A DNA stretch of 64,000 nucleotides, taken from Megaleporinus macrocephalus (taxonomy: Eukaryota; Chordata; Actinopteri; Characiformes; Anostomidae). Below are positions 7,560 through 64,000 of the stretch, piece after piece. The notes beneath the pieces were generated by a model. The model saw only the letters and a program-made list of their open reading frames with translations, did no database searches and was not told the origin of the DNA. Made by a program: the position numbers and the translations under genes. The first letter of the stretch is position 1; every line of letters begins with the position of its first letter. Location of the stretch: the NCBI GenBank assembly GCA_021613375.1, contig CM038702.1:27449349-27513348 (forward strand), read 5' to 3'.

Positions 7560-8225
7560 GCCAATAACTGGTTGTCGGCAGTAACAGCTTTGCCATAACC
7601 TGTGGAGAGTCTTTTACATCACCATGAAGAATATTTGACTCTTCTTTGCAGAAATGTTTTAATTTGGCTACTTATGGTTTTGCCAAAGCATCTTAATGAG
7701 ACTCAAGCTTGGACTCCGCAAACTTTTTTAGTTTAGTTGGAGCCGTTTAGAGGTGGAGTTGTTTGTGCACATTGGATCATAGTCCTACTGCATAACCCAA
7801 CTGCACTTAAGCTTTAGATCACAGGTTAACTGATGGGTTAGCATTCTTCTTCAGAATTTTCTGATAGAGAGCTGAATTCATGGTTCCATCAATTATGACA
7901 AGTTGTACATGTTCAGCAGAAGCAAAGCAGCCCCAGACCATCACAGTACTACTACTAGTTTTACTGTTGGCATGATATTCTTATGGTGGTACTCACAGCA
8001 CTAGCTTTAGACCAGATGTAACAGAATATTTGACAGAATATTATCCCAAAAGTCTTGGAGGGGTTGTCTAGATGTTTTCGGACAAATGTGAGACAAGTGT
8101 CTGTGTTGTTTTCGGTCAGCAGTGGTTGTGGCTTGCCACTCTGGATGCTATGGTCGCCCAGCGTCTTCCAGCGTATTCTTGTTAATGACCTCCAAAAGGC
8201 ATACAGTTAAGGATGACACATTTCC
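7560..8225 (-). pseudogene. Tc1/mariner-like transposase relic (element A)
   Basis: Read on the minus strand, 7830-8000 translates in pieces to the central Tc1 transposase segment with motifs VMVWGCFASAE and IDGTMNSALYQKI. Farther left, 7570-7780 matches the antisense C-terminal part around the conserved cysteine and histidine-rich stretch of this fish family. Farther right, 8050-8180 matches its N-terminal half. Stops and frameshifts break every frame, and segments are missing, so no protein can be made. The intact enzyme family is a DDE cut-and-paste transposase of about 340 residues. The right limit is where similarity switches to a second element. I infer the family from motifs, and the name of the subfamily is not assigned. 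Confidence 0.85.
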
Positions 8226-8637
8226 TCTGTGTTTTAGGCAAAAAATATTTTTTTATTTTCATTGTTTACATTTTCAAAATGATCTACCCATATGCTTAAT
8301 GGTTGGTTCTGTTCCTGAAATTTTTCTCCAAGCATGTCTTTGCTTATTGCAGCCAAAGAATTAAATTTTAACCTCATCTGTCCACAGGATGAACAAAATG
8401 CATCAGGCTTGTTCTTTTGCAAACTTTTGACGTTAATTTTGTGGTGAGGACGCAGGAGAGGTTTTCTTCTGATGACTTGGCTTGTACAAAACCAAAATAA
8501 TACACTGATATTGCTTAAAATGTCAAAAAGTGTGCTTCATATTTAACTTTATGGCCTTTGGAGATCTTCAACTTGCTTAACTGTATACAGTAACTGTAAT
8601 TTTGATCAGGGGTGCCCAAACTTTTCCATGCCACTGA
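8226..8637 (-). pseudogene. second Tc1-like relic with terminal inverted repeat (element B)
   Basis: A different Tc1-like family abuts element A. On the minus strand, 8340-8400 can be read as a TDEVK-type first catalytic aspartate region. Positions 8405-8480 carry the antisense of the adjacent helical part. The right end GGGGTGCCCAAACTTTTCCA at about 8608-8627 is the terminal inverted repeat of a very common fish element. Frames are broken and the remainder of the element is missing on the left, so it is truncated at the junction with element A. Confidence 0.75.
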
Positions 8638-21544: not shown

Positions 21545-22080
21545 TTTCAGCAGCATCTGCACAAGAGCTGTGCATTGGGAGATTCATGACAAGTGTTGGA
21601 GTGACTGATCAACTCCACACAGGCCATAGATCAATATGCACAATGTCACGCATTGGCTAAAGTGGTGTAAAGAACGCTAGCACTAGCCTCTGGAGCGGTG
21701 GAAACATGTTCTGAGTTTGGCAAATGCCAGGAGAATACCTACTGGAATGTATAGTGCCATTGGGCCCTTTAGTTTTATTGAAGGCTGAGCTACAGCATAC
21801 AAAGACATTTTACACGTCATCGTTATGCTTCCAACTTTGTGGTAACATTTTCTGTTCCAGACTGGTGAGCTCCATAAAGACCTGGTTTTACAAGTTTGGT
21901 GCACAGGAACACCGGCACCTTACACAGAGCCCTGACCTTAACCCCACGGTACACCTTTGGAATGAACTGACTGCGAGTCAGGCTTTTTAATCCTACATTA
22001 CAGCCTGAAATCACACTTTTGACTGAATGGACACAAATTCTCACAGACAGACACTGGAGATGGAAGGGCCATCCCAGAAA
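21545..22080 (+). pseudogene. Tc1/mariner-like transposase relic
   Basis: Plus-strand relic covering the central and C-terminal transposase. Bases 21550-21740 match the segment before and after the first catalytic region (TGGTGTAAAGAACGCTAGCA then TGGAGCGGTGGAAACATGTT). Bases 21870-21985 translate to MKTW-like and then QSPDLNPTVHLWNELT. In functional Tc1 enzymes the latter motif is SPDLNPIEHLW, with the catalytic glutamate following NPI; here valine occupies that place, so the third acidic residue is lost. Frameshifts and an internal deletion after 21770 remove the second aspartate region. Clearly non-functional. Confidence 0.85.
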
Positions 22081-24559: not shown

Positions 24560-25265
24560 CAGTGAGGAAAATAAGTATTTGAACACCCTGCGACTTCGCA
24601 AGGTCTCCCACTAAGAAATCATGGAGGGGTCTGACATTTTTTAATGATTTTTTTAATTATTTATTTGTCTGTTACTGCTGCAAATAAGTATTTGAACACC
24701 TGCCAATCAGCAAAAATGCTGGCCCTAAAAAGTCAATCTCCACTCCACTTATTATTCTAAATTAGATGCACCTGTTTGAGTTCGTTAGCTGCATTAAGGC
24801 ACCTGTCCACCCCACACAATCAGTAAGACTCCAACTACTAACATAGCTAAGACCAAAGAGCTGTCCAAAGACACTAGAGACAAGCTTGGTAAAAAAAGAG
24901 AGCTGACACCCCTGTTTCCAAGGTTACTGTGGGTAATACACCAAGACTTCATAGTTTAAAGTCATGCATGGCACGAAAAGTTCCCCTGCTTAAATCAGCA
25001 CACGTCCAGGCCCGTCTTAAGTTTGCCCATGACCATTTGGATGATGCGGAGGAGTCTTGGGAGAAAGTTCTGTGGTCAGATGAGACCAAAATAGAACTTT
25101 TTGGTCTTAATTCCACTCACCAGGTTTGGAGGACGTAGAATGATGAGTACCATCCCAAAAACACCATCCCTGCTGTAAAGCATAGGGGTGGAAGAGGGGT
25201 CGTGGCTGGGTCTTTCAACATGACAATGACCCAAAGCACACAGCCAGGAGAACCAAGAAGTGGCT
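24560..25265 (+). pseudogene. Tc1-like transposon with internal deletions and missing 3' end
   Basis: It begins right after a TA with the inverted repeat CAGTGAGGAAAATAAGTATT, then TGAACACCCTGCG. The 5' region (TAAGTATTTGAACACCTG at about 24685, then TAGATGCACCTGTTTGAG) and the sequence upstream of the start codon are preserved. Most of the DNA-binding region is deleted after 24895. An open stretch at 24929-25138 encodes the piece around the first catalytic aspartate (VLWSDETKIELFG). A second deletion at about 25195 skips the WGCF region, resuming at the second aspartate ([14 protein letters not shown] reading of the HDNDPKHT segment). The copy stops at about 25265, with no 3' inverted repeat. 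Confidence 0.9.
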
Positions 25266-25439
25266 CTTTTCTTACATCACATGTAACTCACTGGTAGGCC
25301 CTGTTTACCATCAGCAAAGATCTCACTAGAAAGTCTTCATGTTTAAATTCTTTGCGGTTGAAGGCATGAAAGATATTAGTAAGCCGATTTCTTAGCTCAT
25401 TTATATTATTTTACCTGATTGATCAAAGGCAGATATAAA

Positions 25440-27155: not shown

Positions 27156-27252
27156 ATATAGAATCTCACAAAAGTGAGTACACCCTCACATTGGTAAATA
27201 TTTAATTAAATTTTTTCATGATACAACACTGAAGATACAATACTTTGATACA
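27156..27252 (+). mobile_element. Tc1-like terminal inverted repeat region
   Basis: TAGAATCTCACAAAAGTGAG then TACACCCTCACATT, then the stretch down to ACAATGTAAAGTAGTCAGTG, is the end of a known fish Tc1-like family. The element is not continued beyond the minisatellite that starts here. Confidence 0.75.
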
Positions 27253-27900
27253 ATGTAAAGTAGTCAGTGTACAGCTTGTAGAACAGTGTAGAGTAGTCAG
27301 TGTACGGCTTGTAGAACAGTGTAAAGTAGTCAGTGTACGGCTTGTAGAACAGTGTAAAGTAGTCAGTGTACAGCTTGTAGAACAGTGTAAAATAGTCAGT
27401 GTACAGCTTGTAGAACAGTGTAAAGTAGTCAGTGTACGGCTTGTAGAACAGTGTAAAGTAGTCAGTGTACGGCTTGTAGAACAGTGTAAAGTAGTCAGTG
27501 TACGGCTTGTAGAACAGTGTAAAGTAGTCAGTGTACGGCTTGTAGAACAGTGTAAAGTAGTCAGTGTACGGCTTGTAGAAAAGTGTAGAGTAGTCAGTGT
27601 ACGGCTTGTAGAACAGTGTAAAGTAGTCAGTGTACGGCTTGTAGAACAGTGTAGAGTAGTCAGTGTACGGCTTGTAGAACAGTGTAAAGTAGTCAGTGTA
27701 CGGCTTGTAGAACAGTGTAAAGTAGTCAGTGTACGGCTTGTAGAACAGTGTAAAGTAGTCAGTGTACGGCTTGTAGAACAGTGTAGAGTAGTCAGTGTAC
27801 GGCTTGTAGAACAGTGTAAAGTAGTCAGTGTACGGCTTGTAGAACAGTGTAAAGTAGTCAGTGTACGGCTTGTATAACAGTGTAAAGAGGTCAGTGTACA
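27253..27900. repeat. 33-bp minisatellite, about 19.5 units
   Basis: A 33-bp unit (GTGTAAAGTAGTCAGTGTAC plus GGCTTGTAGAACA) is repeated head to tail about 19.5 times with only a few point variants: CAGC or CGGC, TAAAG or TAGAG. The first five units are the most variable. The last unit carries GTATAACA in place of GTAGAACA and then breaks down. The unit length is divisible by three and lacks stops in several frames, which creates spurious 210- and 231-residue ORFs of 11-residue repeats on both strands. Confidence 0.95.
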
Positions 27901-29335
27901 TTGTTTACATTGTTTTCAAAAGCAGAGAAATATTTAATCACTAATAGAAGAACATAATTTGTATCACTTATGAATATGAAATGTTGATTTTAGTAATGAT
28001 TGTTTTAACTTCAAGGCTTTATGTGTATAATAGTCATTGCCCTTGTTTGTATGCAGCTGATCTGTGAACCCCTCAGTTTGGTTTGTTGCAGCTGTGTGCT
28101 TTCTCCATTCTGTGATTCTGTGGAATGGTATACAGTAGAAATGATCAAAGCTGCTTTCAAAGAGGCTTTATTTACTGTAATGGAAAATCACACTGCAGTG
28201 CAACACCATAAGAACAAAGGTTATTCCCTGTGTTCAAACTGATGTGTGTTTCACTTAACAATCTCTCTATACTACTCTATTCAGTGCATGTGATCCACAG
28301 TGATTCTGACAGATTGCAATACACTACAGGAAATGTAGCGGGTGACAAGGCCTATAATGTTCACATGATCCACACTGAGCTGAACATTATATAATGTGTC
28401 TTATTTTGTCTCTATTGGCCTTTGTAGTGCTAATATTGCTGAAAGTTAAATATATGTAAATATATTGTCTCTGTCCAAAGAAAAACAAGTGAAAAACAAT
28501 TTGTTTCTCTACACTATTTAAACAAGACAGCTGCCGTGTACACTACGTGACAATTACATAATAACTGGACCGACAGAAACTCTCCAGTAGCATGGAAAAA
28601 TTTCTGGTTCCATTGAATTACACTGAAATCATAGACTCTTCTGTAAAGTTGTTATTTTGGTCATGTTTTTTTTAAACACTGATATACAAATATGCAAACA
28701 AACCTCAAATCCCCAACATCCTCTTATGAGCTCTTTCATGAAATCAAGGCATTCTAATGGGTCACATTATCCCACAAAAGTACATTTTTTAATCAAAATA
28801 TTCAAGCCAGTCTTTAATTACATCATTTATCCGTATATCATTAATACAATGCACAGAAAGCCTTAACACTTTAGCTGCTATTAAGTCTAGCATTGTAGCT
28901 GTGTAGTCCAACACTGACTAAATGGTCAATGTAGTATTTTGTAAAATGTTTTCAATTAAAGCTGAAAGTCTTAATTTCAATCACACTTGCATTTATTATC
29001 CATTGTGGCGGTGTACAGTCGTTTCACTGTTCAACTGCATATTCCACAAAGACTGTATTATAGACAGAGGTGGGTAGTTCTGGTCCCCAAAATAAAATCC
29101 TCCACAGAACATTCATCTAGCTTCAGAACTTCTCTAATCTATTTTACTTTTTGGACCTGAACTGTCCTCCTTTGATTATAGACAACATGACTTTATTATA
29201 AACATTCCAATAGTATAGAAAACATATGGCACTGCATCCATACACTTTAGTTTCAATCATAAAAAAGTTTTTATTATTTGTTATTTATGTAGGTATTAAA
29301 GTGATTTAAGAGGCAGGTCAGATGTGTGCTGCAGC
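27901..29335. other. non-coding; includes two dispersed-repeat scraps
   Basis: No exon seen. Bases 28285-28380 resemble the repeat at 15415-15600 (TGATCCACAGTGATTCTGAC). Bases 28550-28670 resemble the repeat at 62790-63025 (TTTCTGGTTCCATTGAATTA and a TCTGTAAAGTTG word downstream). Confidence 0.5.
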
Positions 29336-29538
29336 CACGCACACACACACACACATGCACGCACGCACGCACGCACACACACTCCACTCTGTCCATTTGT
29401 TTTCAGTGTAAGTTAACGAGGGACCTCCCAGTGGGGGATGTGTCTAAAACAGGAGAAGTAATGAACCCCAATTCCTCAACATATTAGCAGCAAACACCAC
29501 AAAAGATATATCACACACACACACACACACACACACAC
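29336..29538. repeat. (CA)n and (CGCA)n microsatellites
   Basis: CACACACA with an inner GCACGCACGCACGCAC stretch at 29336-29383, and a second (CA)n at about 29513-29538. Confidence 0.9.
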
Positions 29539-31438: not shown

Positions 31439-31859
31439 GACAATAATTATCCATCCATCCATCATCTTCTGCTTTATCCCGCTAGTCAGGGTCACAGGGG
31501 GGCTGGAGCCAATCCCAGCGACATTGAGCAAAGGTGGGGTACAGGTTGCCAGTCAATCACATGGCCACACCTATGGGCAGTTTAGAGTGAGGATCAACCT
31601 AACATGCATGTGTTTGGACTGTGGGAGGAAATTGGAGTACCCAGAGGAAACCCACTCAAGCACGGGGAGAACATACACACTCCACACAGAACAGCCCGGA
31701 CCGGGAATCCAAACCAGGATCATTTTGCTATGAGGAGACAGTGCTGACCACTACACCACTGTGCTAACCACTACACCACTGTGCTAACCACTACACCACT
31801 ATGCTGACCGCTACACCACCCTGCCGACCACTACACCACCGTGCCGCCTGGACAATATT
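31439..31859 (+). mobile_element. ATCC-headed fish dispersed repeat with target duplications
   Basis: It begins (ATCC)3 and continues TTCTGCTTTATCCCGCTAGT, GGTCACAGGGGGGCTGGAGC, GGACTGTGGGAGGAAATTGG, AGTACCCAGAGGAAACCCAC and CACGGGGAGAACATACACAC, ending GTGCCGCC. This motif order is common in fish genomes and usually tied to non-LTR retrotransposon 3' ends. GACAATAAT at 31439 and GACAATATT at 31851 match 8 of 9 bases and look like target-site duplications. Confidence 0.8.
31741..31840 (+). repeat. 20-bp tandem repeat, 5 units, inside the dispersed repeat
   Basis: GTGCTAACCACTACACCACT-type units occur five times with exact 20-bp spacing and a few substitutions, near the repeat's 3' end where a single unit is usual. 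Confidence 0.95.
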
Positions 31860-51059: not shown

Positions 51060-51274
51060 TGTTGTATTTACACTCATATATAGTTGCTCTGGATAATAAG
51101 CACTATTAGACAATACACCTCCTCCCCGCTAGAGGGCTGTTTGAATGGTAAATAAGAGAGAAGGAAGAGAAGAAGTGTGCGTAGGTGAGAAGGAGAAAAA
51201 GCAGCGACTAAGTGAAGTAAAGACAACTAAAAGAGCTCGCCGTTGTCCTGTGTTTTTGACTCACCCACATAACA
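51060..51274 (+). repeat. 5' LTR
   Basis: Begins TGTTGTATTTACACTC and ends CACCCACATAACA, giving TG...CA termini. A TATATA at 51077-51082 may be the promoter TATA element. No canonical AATAAA is present; AATAAG words lie at 51094 and 51151. The gag reading frame is open from an ATG at 51145 within the LTR through its end. Confidence 0.93.
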
Positions 51275-51277
51275 ATT

Positions 51278-51291
51278 TGGCGACGAGGATG
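51278..51291 (+). promoter_or_regulatory. primer binding site, tRNA-Ser(GCT)
   Basis: TGGCGACGAGGATG, three bases after the LTR, is the exact complement of the last 14 bases (including CCA) of vertebrate tRNA-Ser(GCT). The final ATG of the site is the likely gag start codon. Confidence 0.88.
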
Positions 51292-52740
51292 AGTGTTTCA
51301 GTAGCGACCCCACCGCCGTTCCTACCTCATGTAGGTGAGCCACCAATACCGTTTGTTACATGGCGGAAATTTTTCGACAACTACATGCTTGTAATACATG
51401 CTACGGGAGACGCATGGCCAGACGCGAGGAAACGTGCAGTTTTACTACATTGTCTGGGTACGGAAGAACAGCGGTTATTCTACACTCTGCCAGATCAAGG
51501 TACAACGTTTGGAGAAGCAATGACTGCCCTCGAGAAGCATTTCGTACCGAAGGTAAATGTAGTGGCATGCAGACACACTTTCAGACAGCGAGTTCAACGA
51601 GCTGATGAAACCGCGTCTCAGTACGTGGCTGCTTTAAGAGCTTTAGCTACACCGTGTGCTTTTGGACAAATGGAGAGCGAGATGATTAGGGATCAGCTCA
51701 TTTCCAACGCTTATCTTAGTGCTGTGAAGGACAAGTTACTACTGGAAGAAAATCTCACATTGGACAAAGCTCAGACAATTGCATGCCAGATAGAGGCAGC
51801 GGTTAAAAATGCCGCGCTGCTTTCGTCCACTAATCCGGTTCAGACTGCATCAGTACAGGCAGTGGGTGCGGCTAATGCACAATTGCGAGGGAAAAGAGGA
51901 CCGCGCACAGCTAAAGCCCTAACGCAAGACCGTCGCAAACAAACAAATACTAACCAACAGCAACGTAAATGCTTCAGATGTGGTTCTGGCAAGCACTTAG
52001 CAAATGATATAAACTGCCCAGCTGCTTCAGTAAAATGTAACAACTGTAGAAAAAAGGGGCATTTCGCAAAGGTCTGCAAGTCAGCTGTGAGTGAAGTGAG
52101 GGAAGTGGTGGTGCCAGAGCTAGCTGTGCTGTACATAGGCGATGTTAAAAGGGTGGCAGAAGCTCATGATAAAATCACATGCACTGTTAACATTGAAGCA
52201 CCTTTAGGAAATTCTCACGCTTTGGAGCTAATTGTAGATAGTGGAGCTTCTGTATCTATTCTGCCAGAAACCTTGTACAAACAATATTTTGGTAATTGCT
52301 CACTCAGAAAACCTGCAGTCAAACTACTCACTTATGCTAAACAGGAACTAGCTGTGATTGGATGTTTACCAGCGGTGGCTACCATGACAGATCAAAGAGA
52401 AAAAATTCCAGTCTGCTTTTACATTGTCAAAGCTGGATCTCCTTTGTTAGGCCTGGACCTAATTAAAGCGCTCAACATTAACATCATAAGGGGCAAGGTG
52501 AGCTATATCAAGGAGGACAATTCTAATGCGCCACCAGCGGTCAGAAAAGATTCTGCAGTGTACAATGTTTGTGCTGCTTCACCCCATTCGCTTGGATGTG
52601 TGAAAGGGTTCATGCACAAGGTACAGATAGACAAAGCGGTGCAGCCTGTACGTCAAAAATTGAGACGCTTACCATTGAGCATACGTAAGGTGCTCAAGTG
52701 TCAGCGGAGCTCAATCGCTTACTCACAGCAGGCATCATAG
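51289..52740 (+). CDS. gag: gag-protease polyprotein
   Basis: Structural capsid protein plus aspartic protease of the retrotransposon, 483 residues from the ATG at 51289. I prefer this start because it follows the LTR and has A at -3; the frame is also open from an ATG at 51145 inside the LTR, which would add 48 residues. Residues about 20-165 are a typical retrotransposon Gag core. Two zinc knuckles follow: C228-X2-C-X4-H-X6-C243 (long last spacing) and C250-X2-C-X4-H-X4-C263 (canonical). The protease active site is DSGA at 317-320, with LLGLDLI at 386-392 near its end. The frame then runs into the first residues of the RT linker before stopping at 52738. The RT continues in the -1 frame. 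Confidence 0.92.
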   Translation: MSVSVATPPPFLPHVGEPPIPFVTWRKFFDNYMLVIHATGDAWPDARKRAVLLHCLGTEEQRLFYTLPDQGTTFGEAMTALEKHFVPKVNVVACRHTFRQRVQRADETASQYVAALRALATPCAFGQMESEMIRDQLISNAYLSAVKDKLLLEENLTLDKAQTIACQIEAAVKNAALLSSTNPVQTASVQAVGAANAQLRGKRGPRTAKALTQDRRKQTNTNQQQRKCFRCGSGKHLANDINCPAASVKCNNCRKKGHFAKVCKSAVSEVREVVVPELAVLYIGDVKRVAEAHDKITCTVNIEAPLGNSHALELIVDSGASVSILPETLYKQYFGNCSLRKPAVKLLTYAKQELAVIGCLPAVATMTDQREKIPVCFYIVKAGSPLLGLDLIKALNINIIRGKVSYIKEDNSNAPPAVRKDSAVYNVCAASPHSLGCVKGFMHKVQIDKAVQPVRQKLRRLPLSIRKVLKCQRSSIAYSQQAS

Positions 52741-55286
52741 AACGCGTAGATGCATCCGAATGGGTTAGTCCCCTTGTGGTGGCACGAAAGCGCAAAGGGG
52801 GACTGCGGCTTTGTGTTGATCTTCGGGAACCCAATAAAAGTGTAATCATGGACTGTTACCCTCTTCCCCATATGGAAGACTTGTTTGCAGAACTGGCGGG
52901 GGCTACACACTACAGTCAGATTGACTTGAGTTCAGCTTACCACCAATTACCTCTGCATCCTGAAAGCCGCAAGCTGACTGCTTTCATAACACACGAGGGG
53001 GTATTCCAATTTACACGTGTTCCGTTCGGTTTGGCCTCAGCACCTTCAGCGTTCCAGAAAATGATGGAGACAATCCTGAAGGACCTACCCGGGGTACAGA
53101 ACTACCTAGACGACATAATAGTCTATGGAAATTCAAGGGAAACGCATGACAGGCACCTGCAAACTGTTCTACAGCGTCTTAAAGACACTGGACTTCAGAT
53201 TAACTTGGATAAAAGCGCTTTTGGTCAAACCAACATAACATTTCTGGGCCATGTCATTTCTAAAGATGGGTTGCGTCCAAGCACAGATCATCTAACTGCC
53301 ATTGCTGAAGCTCCTGCACCAAAAGACATGGCAGCACTGCGCTCCTTTTTGGGTTTAACTTCTTGGTTCAGTAAATTTCTGCCAAACTATGCTACATTGG
53401 TAGAACCCTTGCGACTACTGCTTAGAGCAAACTCTCAGACTGAACTACAGTGGAATGATGCAGCAGACGAAAGCTTCACCAAACTGAAAACAATGCTTCT
53501 AAAAAGCCCTGCACTTGCCATCTATGACCCCAAATTACCCACCTTCATCTCTACAGATGCCTCAGATTACGGATTAGGGGCTGTCTTGACTCAGCTGCAT
53601 GAAGATAAGGTTGAACGTGTTGTTGCCTTTGCTTCCCGTACGCTGTCAACTGCTGAGAGGAAGTACTCCACGACAGAAAAAGAAGCCCTAGCCTGTGTAT
53701 GGGCCGTGGAACGATGGAGGACTTATGTGTGGGGCCACAGATTCACACTTCGTACTGACCATCAAGCTCTCACAACTCTCCTCAACACCAAAGGCATGAA
53801 TAGAGCTGGTATGAGGATTGCGCGATGGTCGGCTAGGCTGATGTGTTTTCAGTATGATGTGCAGTACCGTCCAGGTAGCCAAAATTTTATGGCTGATGGC
53901 CTTTCACGTCTTCCCCTCAGCAACTCCAATAATGCTATTGATGCAGAGCAGGACTTGTTCACAGAGATAGCTGAGATTTCTCCTCTCCTGACTGCAATAC
54001 CTCTCGCAGACTTCAAAGCTGAATGTGAGGACTGTCCTGAATTAGCAGAACTACGACGGATCATTTGTTCAGGATGGCCAAAGGTGAAAAAGTCTCTTCC
54101 AGGCGTGATACAGTCATATTTCCTAGTGCGACATGAACTCGCTGTTGAGGCGCCACTGATTTTTCGTGGAACACGTCTGGTGGTTCCTAAGTCCCTGCGA
54201 GAGAGGATAGTACACCTAGTGCATGAAGGTCATCAGGGTATAGTTCGCACGAAACAACGCCTCACAGAGCTTTACTGGTGGCCACGCATGGATGACTTAG
54301 TCCACACAGTTCTGTCATATTGTTCAGTTTGCCAGGCTTGTGACAAAACAGCCAGAACAACTCCTACCCCTTTACAGCCTGTGCAGTTCCCAGGTAGCCC
54401 TTTTCAACATGTAGCTATTGACATTGTGGGTCCGTTCGACCGTGGGGCCTATGATTGTAGATTTGCCATTACCCTTGTGGATTTCTTCAGTAAATGGCCA
54501 GAAGTAGGCTTTGCTGCAAATGCAACAACAGACACGGTTATTACATTCCTGACTTCAGTCTTTGCACGTGAAGGAAATCCCTGTGCCATCACCACAGACA
54601 ATGGTCCGCAGTTTACATCTTCAGCTTTCGCTGAATTCTTAAGGGAAAGGGGCATCAAGCACATCAGAACAAGTGTCTACCACCCTCAAGCTAACGGCTG
54701 TGTAGAACGATTCAACAGAGTTCTTAAGGACTGTATTCAAGCAGCCCAAGCAGCACAACGACCATGGAAGTCTGCAGTAACTGAGATGCTTCACAGTTAT
54801 CGTGCTACGGCTCATGCAACTACTGGAGAATCCCCGTTTCAGCTTCTGAGGGGTAGACCTATGCGAACAAAACTGCATGTCCTACCACCAGCACAGGATA
54901 GTAAAAGGGACACTAAAGTCAAAACCAGAGTGGCCTTGCAACAGGCCAAGAGTAAACTCTACATTGATGTCAAGAGAGGTGCAAAGCCTTCCAAGATCAA
55001 AGTTGGTGACAAGGTGCGAGTACGAAAACCTTTCCATGTGGGAAAGGGAGAGAGACAATTCACAGATCCTTTGTCTGTGCAGCAACAAACAGGGCTAAGC
55101 ACTTTCATCCTGAGTGATGGGAAAAGGTGGAATGCATCTCGCCTTTCTCTCTGCCCAGAGAGAGAAGATTCATCTAGGGCTGGTATGACCGAGGAAAATA
55201 TCAGCCCACCGCAGACTCCTGCAACACGCACCCTGCCAGAGAGAGAGAGACAACCTCCGGCTTGGACTAAAGACTATGTGATGTGA
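52698..55286 (+). CDS. pol: pol: reverse transcriptase, RNase H and integrase
   Basis: An 862-codon frame copies element RNA into DNA and integrates it. Numbering from GTG at 52698 is arbitrary, since this frame lacks its own initiation signal and would be reached as a fusion with gag-protease. RT has catalytic D76 (SQIDLSSAYHQ) and YLDD at 136-139. RNase H has D287 (TDAS), the TEKE motif at 326-329, D354 and D400. Integrase has a zinc finger H509-X2-H512...C542-X2-C545, then D575, D634 and E670, giving D-X58-D-X35-E. A chromatin/GPY-like module lies near 765-780 (KIKVGDKVRVRKP). The frame opens only at 52689 and overlaps the gag frame by about 50 bases. All catalytic residues are intact. Confidence 0.93.
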   Translation: MSAELNRLLTAGIIERVDASEWVSPLVVARKRKGGLRLCVDLREPNKSVIMDCYPLPHMEDLFAELAGATHYSQIDLSSAYHQLPLHPESRKLTAFITHEGVFQFTRVPFGLASAPSAFQKMMETILKDLPGVQNYLDDIIVYGNSRETHDRHLQTVLQRLKDTGLQINLDKSAFGQTNITFLGHVISKDGLRPSTDHLTAIAEAPAPKDMAALRSFLGLTSWFSKFLPNYATLVEPLRLLLRANSQTELQWNDAADESFTKLKTMLLKSPALAIYDPKLPTFISTDASDYGLGAVLTQLHEDKVERVVAFASRTLSTAERKYSTTEKEALACVWAVERWRTYVWGHRFTLRTDHQALTTLLNTKGMNRAGMRIARWSARLMCFQYDVQYRPGSQNFMADGLSRLPLSNSNNAIDAEQDLFTEIAEISPLLTAIPLADFKAECEDCPELAELRRIICSGWPKVKKSLPGVIQSYFLVRHELAVEAPLIFRGTRLVVPKSLRERIVHLVHEGHQGIVRTKQRLTELYWWPRMDDLVHTVLSYCSVCQACDKTARTTPTPLQPVQFPGSPFQHVAIDIVGPFDRGAYDCRFAITLVDFFSKWPEVGFAANATTDTVITFLTSVFAREGNPCAITTDNGPQFTSSAFAEFLRERGIKHIRTSVYHPQANGCVERFNRVLKDCIQAAQAAQRPWKSAVTEMLHSYRATAHATTGESPFQLLRGRPMRTKLHVLPPAQDSKRDTKVKTRVALQQAKSKLYIDVKRGAKPSKIKVGDKVRVRKPFHVGKGERQFTDPLSVQQQTGLSTFILSDGKRWNASRLSLCPEREDSSRAGMTEENISPPQTPATRTLPERERQPPAWTKDYVM

Positions 55287-58260: not shown

Positions 58261-59050
58261 CTCGACATATTACATATTAAAACAACACATACAAAATATG
58301 CATGCGAGTGCACACATGCACACAATTGCATACATATATTACAACATATTACAACATATTAGAGCACATGAAATATATGAAATACCCAGAGGCGCATATA
58401 CGTATACAGACCCAGACAACAGTACATTTAGACAAACAGTGATAATCTGCAGAATTATAGTAATTAATTATATGATGATTCATTCTATTATGAAAAAACA
58501 CATGATCATTACAGAATCTTGCATTAGCTCTCACATAGTCTTACATAGCTCACATCTTCTCTGGTGCTAATATAATTACTATACAATTACTGGCATCTAA
58601 TATTACTTCATTATTTGCAATCACATGTTATTCACAGATGATGTGTAAGATCCTGTTGTTCTCTGCCTTTGTTTGATTGGAAACACAAATATTATGCTGC
58701 ATTAGCATTGTTTATTGTATATTATTTTACATTTCTCCTCAGTGATAACATTCTCAATTCTGATTACCATGAATGTACCATGGGACAAACAAGTTTCTAG
58801 TGGGTTGTATTTTTTATCATCAGAATTTTACATTATTTATTTAAGAAAAAGTCATTTATACACCTAGTCATTATTTCTAGATGTCTTTCTAAAAACTGTT
58901 ATTGCACATAAGGAGGAATAAAATAAGGCTTTACAGCTATACATTCTATTATAATTACCTCCTTCTAACTATGTTCATTTCATTTCATTTTGGAAAGCAG
59001 AAGGACCTACTCCATTAAAAAGGAAGCTGAGTGCAGGATTAATGCCAACC
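58261..59050. other. non-coding sequence, no gene seen
   Basis: AT-rich. No exon or repeat family recognised. Confidence 0.45.
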
Positions 59051-59311
59051 ATCACTGCTACTGAGTACTTATTGGTTAGCTGTAATGTTTCTTAGCACTC
59101 ACTGGTTAGTGTTATTGCTATCAAGCACATATTGGTTAGCATTTCTGCTACTGAATAATTATTGGTTAACTATACTGTTTCTGAGTATTTACTGATTTCG
59201 TTATTGTTACTGTGCACTGATTGGTTAGCCTTACTGCTGCTGAATGCTGATTGGTTAGCCTTACTGCTACTGATCACTGATTGGTTAGCATTTCTGCTAC
59301 TAAGTGCTGAC
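59051..59311. repeat. 30-bp minisatellite, 8-9 units
   Basis: ATTGGTTAGC (or close variants) occurs at about 59072, 59102, 59132, 59162, 59192, 59221, 59251 and 59281, a strict 30-bp rhythm. TACTGCTACTGAGCACTG-like sequence fills each unit. Each unit carries an ATTGG (inverted CCAAT) word. Confidence 0.9.
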
Positions 59312-63039: not shown

Positions 63040-64000
63040 GTTTGACGTCCCATTCCAAAACCATGGGCCCCCGACCTTTGCGTCTATAACAGCCTCCACT
63101 AATCTGGGAAGGTTTTCCACGAGATTTTGAAGTGTATCCATGAGAATTCGGTTGAAGAAGCCGGGGAGGTCAGGCGATGATTTTAGATGAGAAGTCTTCA
63201 TTCCAGTTCCTCCTGGTGTCCACACCAAAGTCGCCTATATGGGCCTCTTATTGTGCAAGGGGGTCATGCCCAGCCATGCTGGAGCAGAAAAGGGTCTTCC
63301 TTAAACTGTGACCACAATGTTGGAAACATAAATGTTGTTATCAAATGTTGTTATATGCTGTAGCATTTACATTACTCTTTACTAAAGCAGAGGGGCTGAG
63401 CCACAACCCCTGAAACAGCCTGAGATCATTTTCCCGCCTCCTGGCATACGTCAAACCTAGATTCATTCATCAGACTGCCAGAAGGTGAAGTGTGATTCAT
63501 TACTCAAGAGAACATGTTTCTACTGCTCCGGAGTCCAGTAAGCGGCATGCTTTACAGCACTCTAGCTGATGACTGCCATTAAGCATAGTGATCTTAGGCT
63601 TATGTGCAGCAGCTCAGACATAGAAGACCATTTCATAAAGCTCCCAACACACAGCTCTGGTACTGATGATGCTTCTAAAAGCAGCTTGGAGCTCTGTAGT
63701 GAGTAATGCAACAGAGGATGCTCTGTGAGTTTGCAGGGTCTGATGCTTTGTTCATAGGAGCTGTTCGGTGCTCCTACATGCTGTCATCGACACTTACAGT
63801 TAATGAGGGCAGACCTAGCAGGGCAGAACTTTTACAAACCAACTTCTAACAGGTTCTAGATGACAGTGCTAAGTTTAAAGTCACTGATCTCTTCAGCATG
63901 ACTCATTCTTCTGCTAGTGTTCATCTGTGGAGACTGTGTGACTGTGTGAATGCCTCATCATTACACAACAGTGTTAAGTAGCAACTTTGTCAGTCAGAGC
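63040..64000 (-). pseudogene. Tc1/mariner-like transposon relic, runs off window end
   Basis: On the minus strand, 63228 down to 62950 gives a frame with DTLQNLVENLPRLVEAVIDA, the C-terminal helix of a common fish Tc1-like transposase. Farther right, 63390-63560 matches the antisense WGCF-to-first-aspartate region (the TGATTCATTACTCAAGAGAA phrase). Bases 63600-63960 match the DNA-binding half. The catalytic segment between about 63250 and 63390 is reduced, and stops break the rest. The 5' end lies beyond base 64000. Confidence 0.85.

Follow-up and report, generated by a model that had tools for sequence, protein, structure and literature searches.

Origin of a 33-bp array at a transposon end

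At one locus of the window (the whole 64,000-nucleotide stretch of Megaleporinus macrocephalus DNA analysed here), a Tc1-like inverted repeat runs directly into a 33-bp tandem array, which raises the question of whether the minisatellite was born from the transposon end or only lies beside it. The pairing itself, proposed in a sequence-only reading of the locus, was confirmed by TRF (19.7 copies, 96% matches, no indels, score 1209) and by comparison of the terminal inverted repeat (TIR) with a consensus of the family's arms (Table 1). The Tc1-like region had been rightly recognised, with its boundary now placed at an element start of 27,159, directly after the TA. The TIR form taken from this copy does not represent the family's usual ending: the window's TAGAATCTC is atypical, and the usual form after TA is CAGTATCTC. 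As a genome query, the window TIR together with 11 bp of unit 1 recovered its own locus plus 39 others at 84-88% identity (40 of 462 candidates scored; 30 of those 40 places retrieved).

Table 1. Features of the transposon end and the adjoining array, in window positions
Feature	Position	Strand	Remarks
TA target-site dinucleotide preceding the element	27157..27158	.	Arm consensus is TA then CAGTATCTCAC; right-hand end lost in the window copy
Outer part of Tc1-family TIR, 91 bp	27159..27249	+	80 of 90 aligned bases agree with the arm consensus
Outer IR/DR direct repeat, lacking one C of the consensus	27168..27186	+	Here ACAAAAGTGAGTACACCCT; consensus ACAAAAGTGAGTACACCCCT
33-bp tandem array of 19 complete units plus 23 bp of a further one	27250..27899	+	TRF and in-register reading of units
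Unit 1, single-unit start (ACAATG...CAGC) with array-type TAGA end	27250..27282	+	
Unit 19, the sole full unit with the single-unit TATA end	27844..27876	+	
Partial unit 20, array edge, 2 mismatches in 23 bp	27877..27899	+	
Possible inverted stub of unit and inner TIR edge, 26 bp	27895..27920	-	TGTACATTG / TTTACATTGTTTTCAAA

Within the array, 11 of the 19 full units equal the consensus ACAGTGTAAAGTAGTCAGTGTACGGCTTGTAGA, and old bases stand at the edges (units 1 and 19) with uniform sequence common in between. Both edges thus look like the element, as had been proposed: unit 1 carries the base-4 A and the last full unit the TATA ending (T at base 32) that are usual in the single-unit arms described below. 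CAGC, whose A at base 24 is likewise the usual single-unit form, was correctly read in units 1, 4 and 5, and the remaining 16 carry CGGC. The directional homogenisation suggested by this pattern is less well supported, adjacent units being no more similar than shuffled ones (P = 0.21). The leftward placement of the CAGC units (P = 0.010) was tested after being noticed, and we find little support for a direction along the array: CGGC contains a CpG (the G form at base 24) and appears at least twice in each of four further arrays (C1:28335772, C1:67356850, C18:32184333 and C5:22185403). At least two CGGC units are present in 5 of the 27 sampled arrays, including 3 among the four sampled on C1 (27.48, 28.34 and 67.35 Mb); this concentration on C1, noticed after looking, gives a hint of within-chromosome exchange.

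The statement that the rest of the transposon is absent also stands, with one possible exception. The 19-bp TIR word does not recur on either strand of the 64-kb window, even with up to three mismatches, blastn of the locus within the window gave no other good match (best E 0.55), and the window copy holds the outer repeat only, with no transposase and no inner segment (score 15). The possible exception is the right-edge sequence TGTACATTGTTTACATTGTTTTCAAA, which resembles an inverted unit plus the inner TIR edge. Its alignment score was equalled by 11 of 29,585 other 53-bp windows when gap extension was eased from -2 to -1, and by 32 of 19,717 windows with a shorter query, such low values arising only in subsequent tests tied to the edge of the array. 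Whole-flank searches for an inverted right-hand TIR were not significant, with 43 of 300 shuffles as high for 27,877-28,100 and 74 of 300 for 27,877-29,500; in direct orientation, the corresponding counts were 25 and 152 of 300. The 26-bp match is only suggestive of an inverted stub of the element's own arm. At another locus (L057, ~1591-2130), an array of the same unit runs into a unit in reverse orientation at a TGTACA palindrome, and we think, after several trials, that the right edge in the window may be a fold-back of this kind that was cut short.

The 33-bp word in the transposon family

In the one genome searched (1,281,940,832 bp, 100 contigs), in which the window is C1:27449349-27513348, the majority consensus of 24 non-array arms consists of TA, the stretch beginning CAGTATCTCACAAAAGTGAGTACACCCC, the word ACAATGTAAAGTAGTCAGTGTACAGCTTGTATA once, the stretch beginning ACAGTGTAAAGTTGCTGTGCCC, and a second ACAAAAGTGAGTACACCCCT. 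The family consensus therefore contains the array monomer, as the sequence-only reading had supposed. The outer and inner direct repeats are identical at 20 of 20 bases in the consensus, and the word sits in the spacer between them in 37 single-unit arms with both flanks (49 single-unit blocks were collected, 44 with the outer and 41 with the inner flank). Among these 37 arms, base 4 is A in 34 and base 24 is A in 36, while base 32 is T in 29, C in 4, G in 2 and A in 2. Single-unit elements with the array-type ending also exist, namely L096 and L097, whose two inner junctions each read TAGA. The word is directly followed by a repeat of its own first 12 bp, identical at 11 of 12 bases (ACAATGTAAAGT ... 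ACAGTGTAAAGT), which forms a short seed.

The family is a Tc1 family of the IR/DR type: arms face each other in several loci, their inverted repeats hold two direct repeats each, and transposase sequence lies between arms. TA, a candidate target-site duplication, precedes the arm in the consensus. Sleeping Beauty-type IR/DR Tc1 elements likewise have two direct repeats in each inverted repeat; unlike here, their spacer is not known to hold a tandem array. By analogy, the direct repeats are candidate transposase sites. The best matches of a transposase query included the Hucho hucho Tc1-like transposase P0004 at 99% (7986 candidates scored, best 120 listed), and P0004 gave 116 matches in the genome (105 of 32,606 candidates scored). 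Internal stop codons interrupt all six top matches, and the seventh, free of stops, spans only part of the protein. Decayed transposase with ~62-78% identity to the fish P0004 lies inward of the arms in L009, L010, L013, L021 and others, and the genome also contains less closely related Tc1 families that have open frames (~39-48% identity).

Array loci across the genome

Allowing up to two mismatches, we counted 225 TIR-to-unit, 248 unit-to-inner and 11,014 unit-to-unit junctions genome-wide, and reversed control patterns gave 0 matches in the same search. The unit-to-unit junctions correspond to at least ~363 kb of array, or 0.028% of the genome. We further examined a non-random sample of 27 array loci obtained via TIR, array or transposase queries, scoring their flanks with a cut-off of 40 (the maximum among 500 random stretches was 27 and 25). 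The TIR is present at 17 of the 22 readable left ends and no transposon at the other 5; at C1:28335772, which was scored negative with its damaged first unit cut off, a partial TIR (30/34) would raise the count to 18 of 22. The 22 readable right ends comprise 11 with the inner segment, 4 with transposase and no inner segment, and 7 with no transposon, the window's included. Where both ends could be read (17 loci), both flanks are present in 10. L069, a stretch from the wrong side of the array in L011, was left out of the end readings. Neither flank was found at C18:32184333-32186059 and C12:4526837-4527848, and the third locus scored so is C1:28335772 with its partial TIR. These two or three loci indicate that arrays outside the element also occur, although arrays are not mainly without a transposon flank.

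Copies with one and with many units, which the sequence-only reading proposed to look for, both exist. Beyond the single-unit arms, sizes range over ~6 units (L022), 13 (L059), 37 (L005) and ~44 (L007), up to ~365 units in a 12,038-bp array on C10 that lies between TIR and inner segment; a C23 span of ~35 kb (23271003-23305783) shows unit matches with a TIR at its start, both of these large loci having been read at their ends. The C10 length comes from pairing 65 of 100 listed left-junction rows with 36 of 100 listed inner-junction rows, selected by eye, and the pairing serves for this length only. The largest array spans lie on C23, C7 and C3. Two elements, L011 and L013, contain transposase and differ between their arms, one arm holding an array and the opposite arm a single unit. 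Fifteen arrays have a transposase match past the right end, some of these matches being short, weak or distant, and the frame of the match assigns 9 arrays to the 5' arm and 6 to the 3' arm. In L011, ~540 bp of other sequence (~820-1370) splits the single unit of the non-array arm. Among the matches listed, further unit-unit junctions on C1 lie at 6.40, 28.13, 61.17, 62.02 and 63.29 Mb.

Probable growth from the transposon end

The monomer occurs once in the element and the arrays stand in register at the same place, and we consider it very likely that the window array is a minisatellite born from the end of a Tc1-family transposon. The single-unit state, the seed repeat, many array sizes at the same site and old bases at array edges were all observed, and growth is deduced from these stages within one genome. 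Misalignment of the two 12-bp seed stretches, in replication or exchange, would have duplicated the word; once two full copies existed, unequal exchange or slippage could have lengthened the array and spread variants, with edge units retaining old bases. Most internal array units start with ACAGTG, as would follow from an origin in the second seed copy. The inward part of the window copy was probably lost, either by deletion or through rearrangement of a fold-back type at the palindrome TGTACA.

Two observations sit uneasily with this origin. G at base 32 (G32) is common in arrays and present in only 2 of 37 single-unit arms, a pattern not expected if random copies had grown arrays independently, and 7 of 22 right ends and 5 of 22 left ends lack a transposon. 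If the array were instead an ordinary dispersed satellite that came by chance to lie beside TIR-like sequence, loci such as C18:32184333 and C12:4526837, with no transposon at either end, would be readily explained; single-unit arms, however, contradict this account, the word belongs to the transposon-arm consensus, and the TIR enters the array at the same place at 17 of 22 left ends, so that we regard chance proximity as extremely improbable.

Shared units and the spread of arrays

A birth at the transposon end would leave the question of how so many copies came to hold similar arrays. Across 892 units of the 27 arrays, base 32 is G in 789 and T in 83, and G is the majority base in every array; accordingly, array units mostly end in TAGA and single units mostly in TATA. 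Minor variants recur as well, with at least two TATA units in 10 of 27 arrays, A9C in 8 arrays, and a TATA ending of the last unit in the window array, L007 and L059. Unit difference averages 0.058 within arrays and 0.070 between them. In contrast to these shared units, the flanks of the arrays form no cluster, requiring 8 changes versus a shuffled mean of 9.2 in a first flank tree (a value this low in 85 of 500 shuffles, with 10 arrays and 39 single arms) and 7 versus 7.6 in a second (172 of 500 shuffles; 8 arrays, 43 single arms), which included L096, L097, L098 and L102, chosen for G at the junction. Single-unit arms ending in TAGA were likewise unclustered in the second tree (5 changes versus a shuffled mean of 4.8). 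AU tests of arrays as one clade gave p = 0.078 in the first tree and p = 0.046 in the second, and p = 0.058 in the second for arrays joined with TAGA singles; both flank trees contain very few firm forks. In the first tree, one of TIRs, the window arm pairs with the single-unit TATA arm L040 (93/85, below the program's firm limit). Shared units combined with scattered flanks can mean either an expansion-prone TAGA subfamily or units moving between copies.

The former would have spread from one founder, an element or TAGA subfamily that gained a short array once and then transposed, its copies lengthening separately, which is compatible with birth from the transposon end. Such a history accords with the G32 majority in all 27 sampled arrays, with the single-unit TAGA elements L096 and L097, and with units being slightly more alike within than between arrays. 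A single founder should nevertheless leave the array flanks clustered, and they are unclustered in both trees, with the AU values for one clade also weighing against it; arrays occur, moreover, in both arms, although inversion of the element's middle could also yield this distribution. With so few firm forks in either tree, we treat a single founder as possible but somewhat doubtful. Equally compatible with the transposon-end origin is exchange, in which homologous recombination brought units, perhaps in circular form, into the single-unit arms of other copies, so that flanks stay local while units share G32. The presence of arrays at the same site in many copies, the unit variants common across arrays, the scattered flanks and the old bases at some array edges (the TATA of the last units) all fit such transfer, but the shared variants could also be produced by recurrent mutation, the old edge bases are just as expected under a founder, the flank trees are poorly resolved, and no circle, intermediate or breakpoint was seen. 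Exchange is a route that we likewise treat as possible but somewhat doubtful.

More specifically, the single-unit word in hundreds of arms might serve as a landing site, with TAGA-lineage units moved between copies by homologous exchange, a proposal that we rate as rather unlikely. If true, a dispersed transposon family would supply ready-made seeds, and one satellite could spread genome-wide without transposing. This genome holds the stages side by side, from the single-unit seed through arrays of a few to hundreds of units, with and without transposase, to arrays without a recognisable element, and makes satellite birth testable, above all in whether arrays grow locally, are carried along by the transposon or pass from copy to copy by exchange. 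As a separate observation, a shortened unit with 5 bp missing, ACAGTGTAGTCAGTG, recurs in 10 of 27 arrays and possibly marks a deletion hot spot.

Comparison with known systems

Searches for relatives outside the genome found none in viral_contigs, where no relative was encoded by any of 24 pattern matches, nor in genome_contigs or in phages and plasmids, and a protein search with the open frame of the array gave no match at E <= 0.001 among 6551 candidates. A paper search for the family word TGAGTACACCC returned a zebrafish tdr7 primer among its matches, as far as the available text of the papers goes; no other DNA words of the locus were found in open-licence papers, and literature searches covering open-licence papers met no report of a transposon-end origin for a 33-bp array.

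Among described systems, Tetris/TIR-220 of Drosophila virilis is the closest in anatomy: according to the available text, it likewise has tandem repeats in its TIRs between outer and inner parts, with variable copy number and arrays of kb size, and a short internal similarity was likewise proposed as the seed (PMC4079207). It differs in being a foldback, apparently non-autonomous element with 220-bp units, whereas the unit here is 33 bp long and belongs to a Tc1 family with recognisable transposase. In Xenopus, Xmix/Xstir and miDNA4 are likewise tandem repeats in MITEs, that of miDNA4 being a Tc1-mariner MITE (PMC9659126, a review available in part). These MITEs are non-autonomous, unlike the present family, in which the array-bearing copies include some with transposase sequence. 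Satellites derived from transposon ends are thus already known from Tetris, Xstir and miDNA4, as these partial sources describe them, and what is added here is an unusually complete series of stages.

PmeSat30-33 of Piaractus mesopotamicus has a 33-bp unit, an A+T content of 63.6% and a divergence of 5.67% (PMC9859320), and the unit forms here have 58-67% A+T and a within-array difference of 5.8%, so that the two are close by descriptions of length, A+T and divergence only. Its listed abundance, 0.00006, is roughly one fifth of the value counted here (at least 0.00028), and Tc1 has 0 occurrences in the available text of that paper (PMC9859320). We regard PmeSat30-33 as a lead only towards a relative of the array unit. 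For Myloplus tiete, no 33-bp family is listed in the accessible part of the corresponding paper (PMC13156159).

Other repeats in the window

Elsewhere in the window, decayed Tc1-like transposase pieces were detected with a transposase query at 7825-8470 (-), 21715-21969 (+), 24911-25266 (+) and 63388-63555 (-), those at 21.7 kb (E 0.003) and 63.4 kb (E 1.1) being weak. Two long overlapping open frames at 51145-55286 appear gag-like, with a CCHC zinc knuckle, and pol-like, of Ty3/gypsy type, the pol assignment having been made by eye only. Two further minisatellites are present, one with a 20-bp unit in 5.2 copies (31741-31844) and one with a 30-bp unit and a 90-bp higher-order period (59050-59301).
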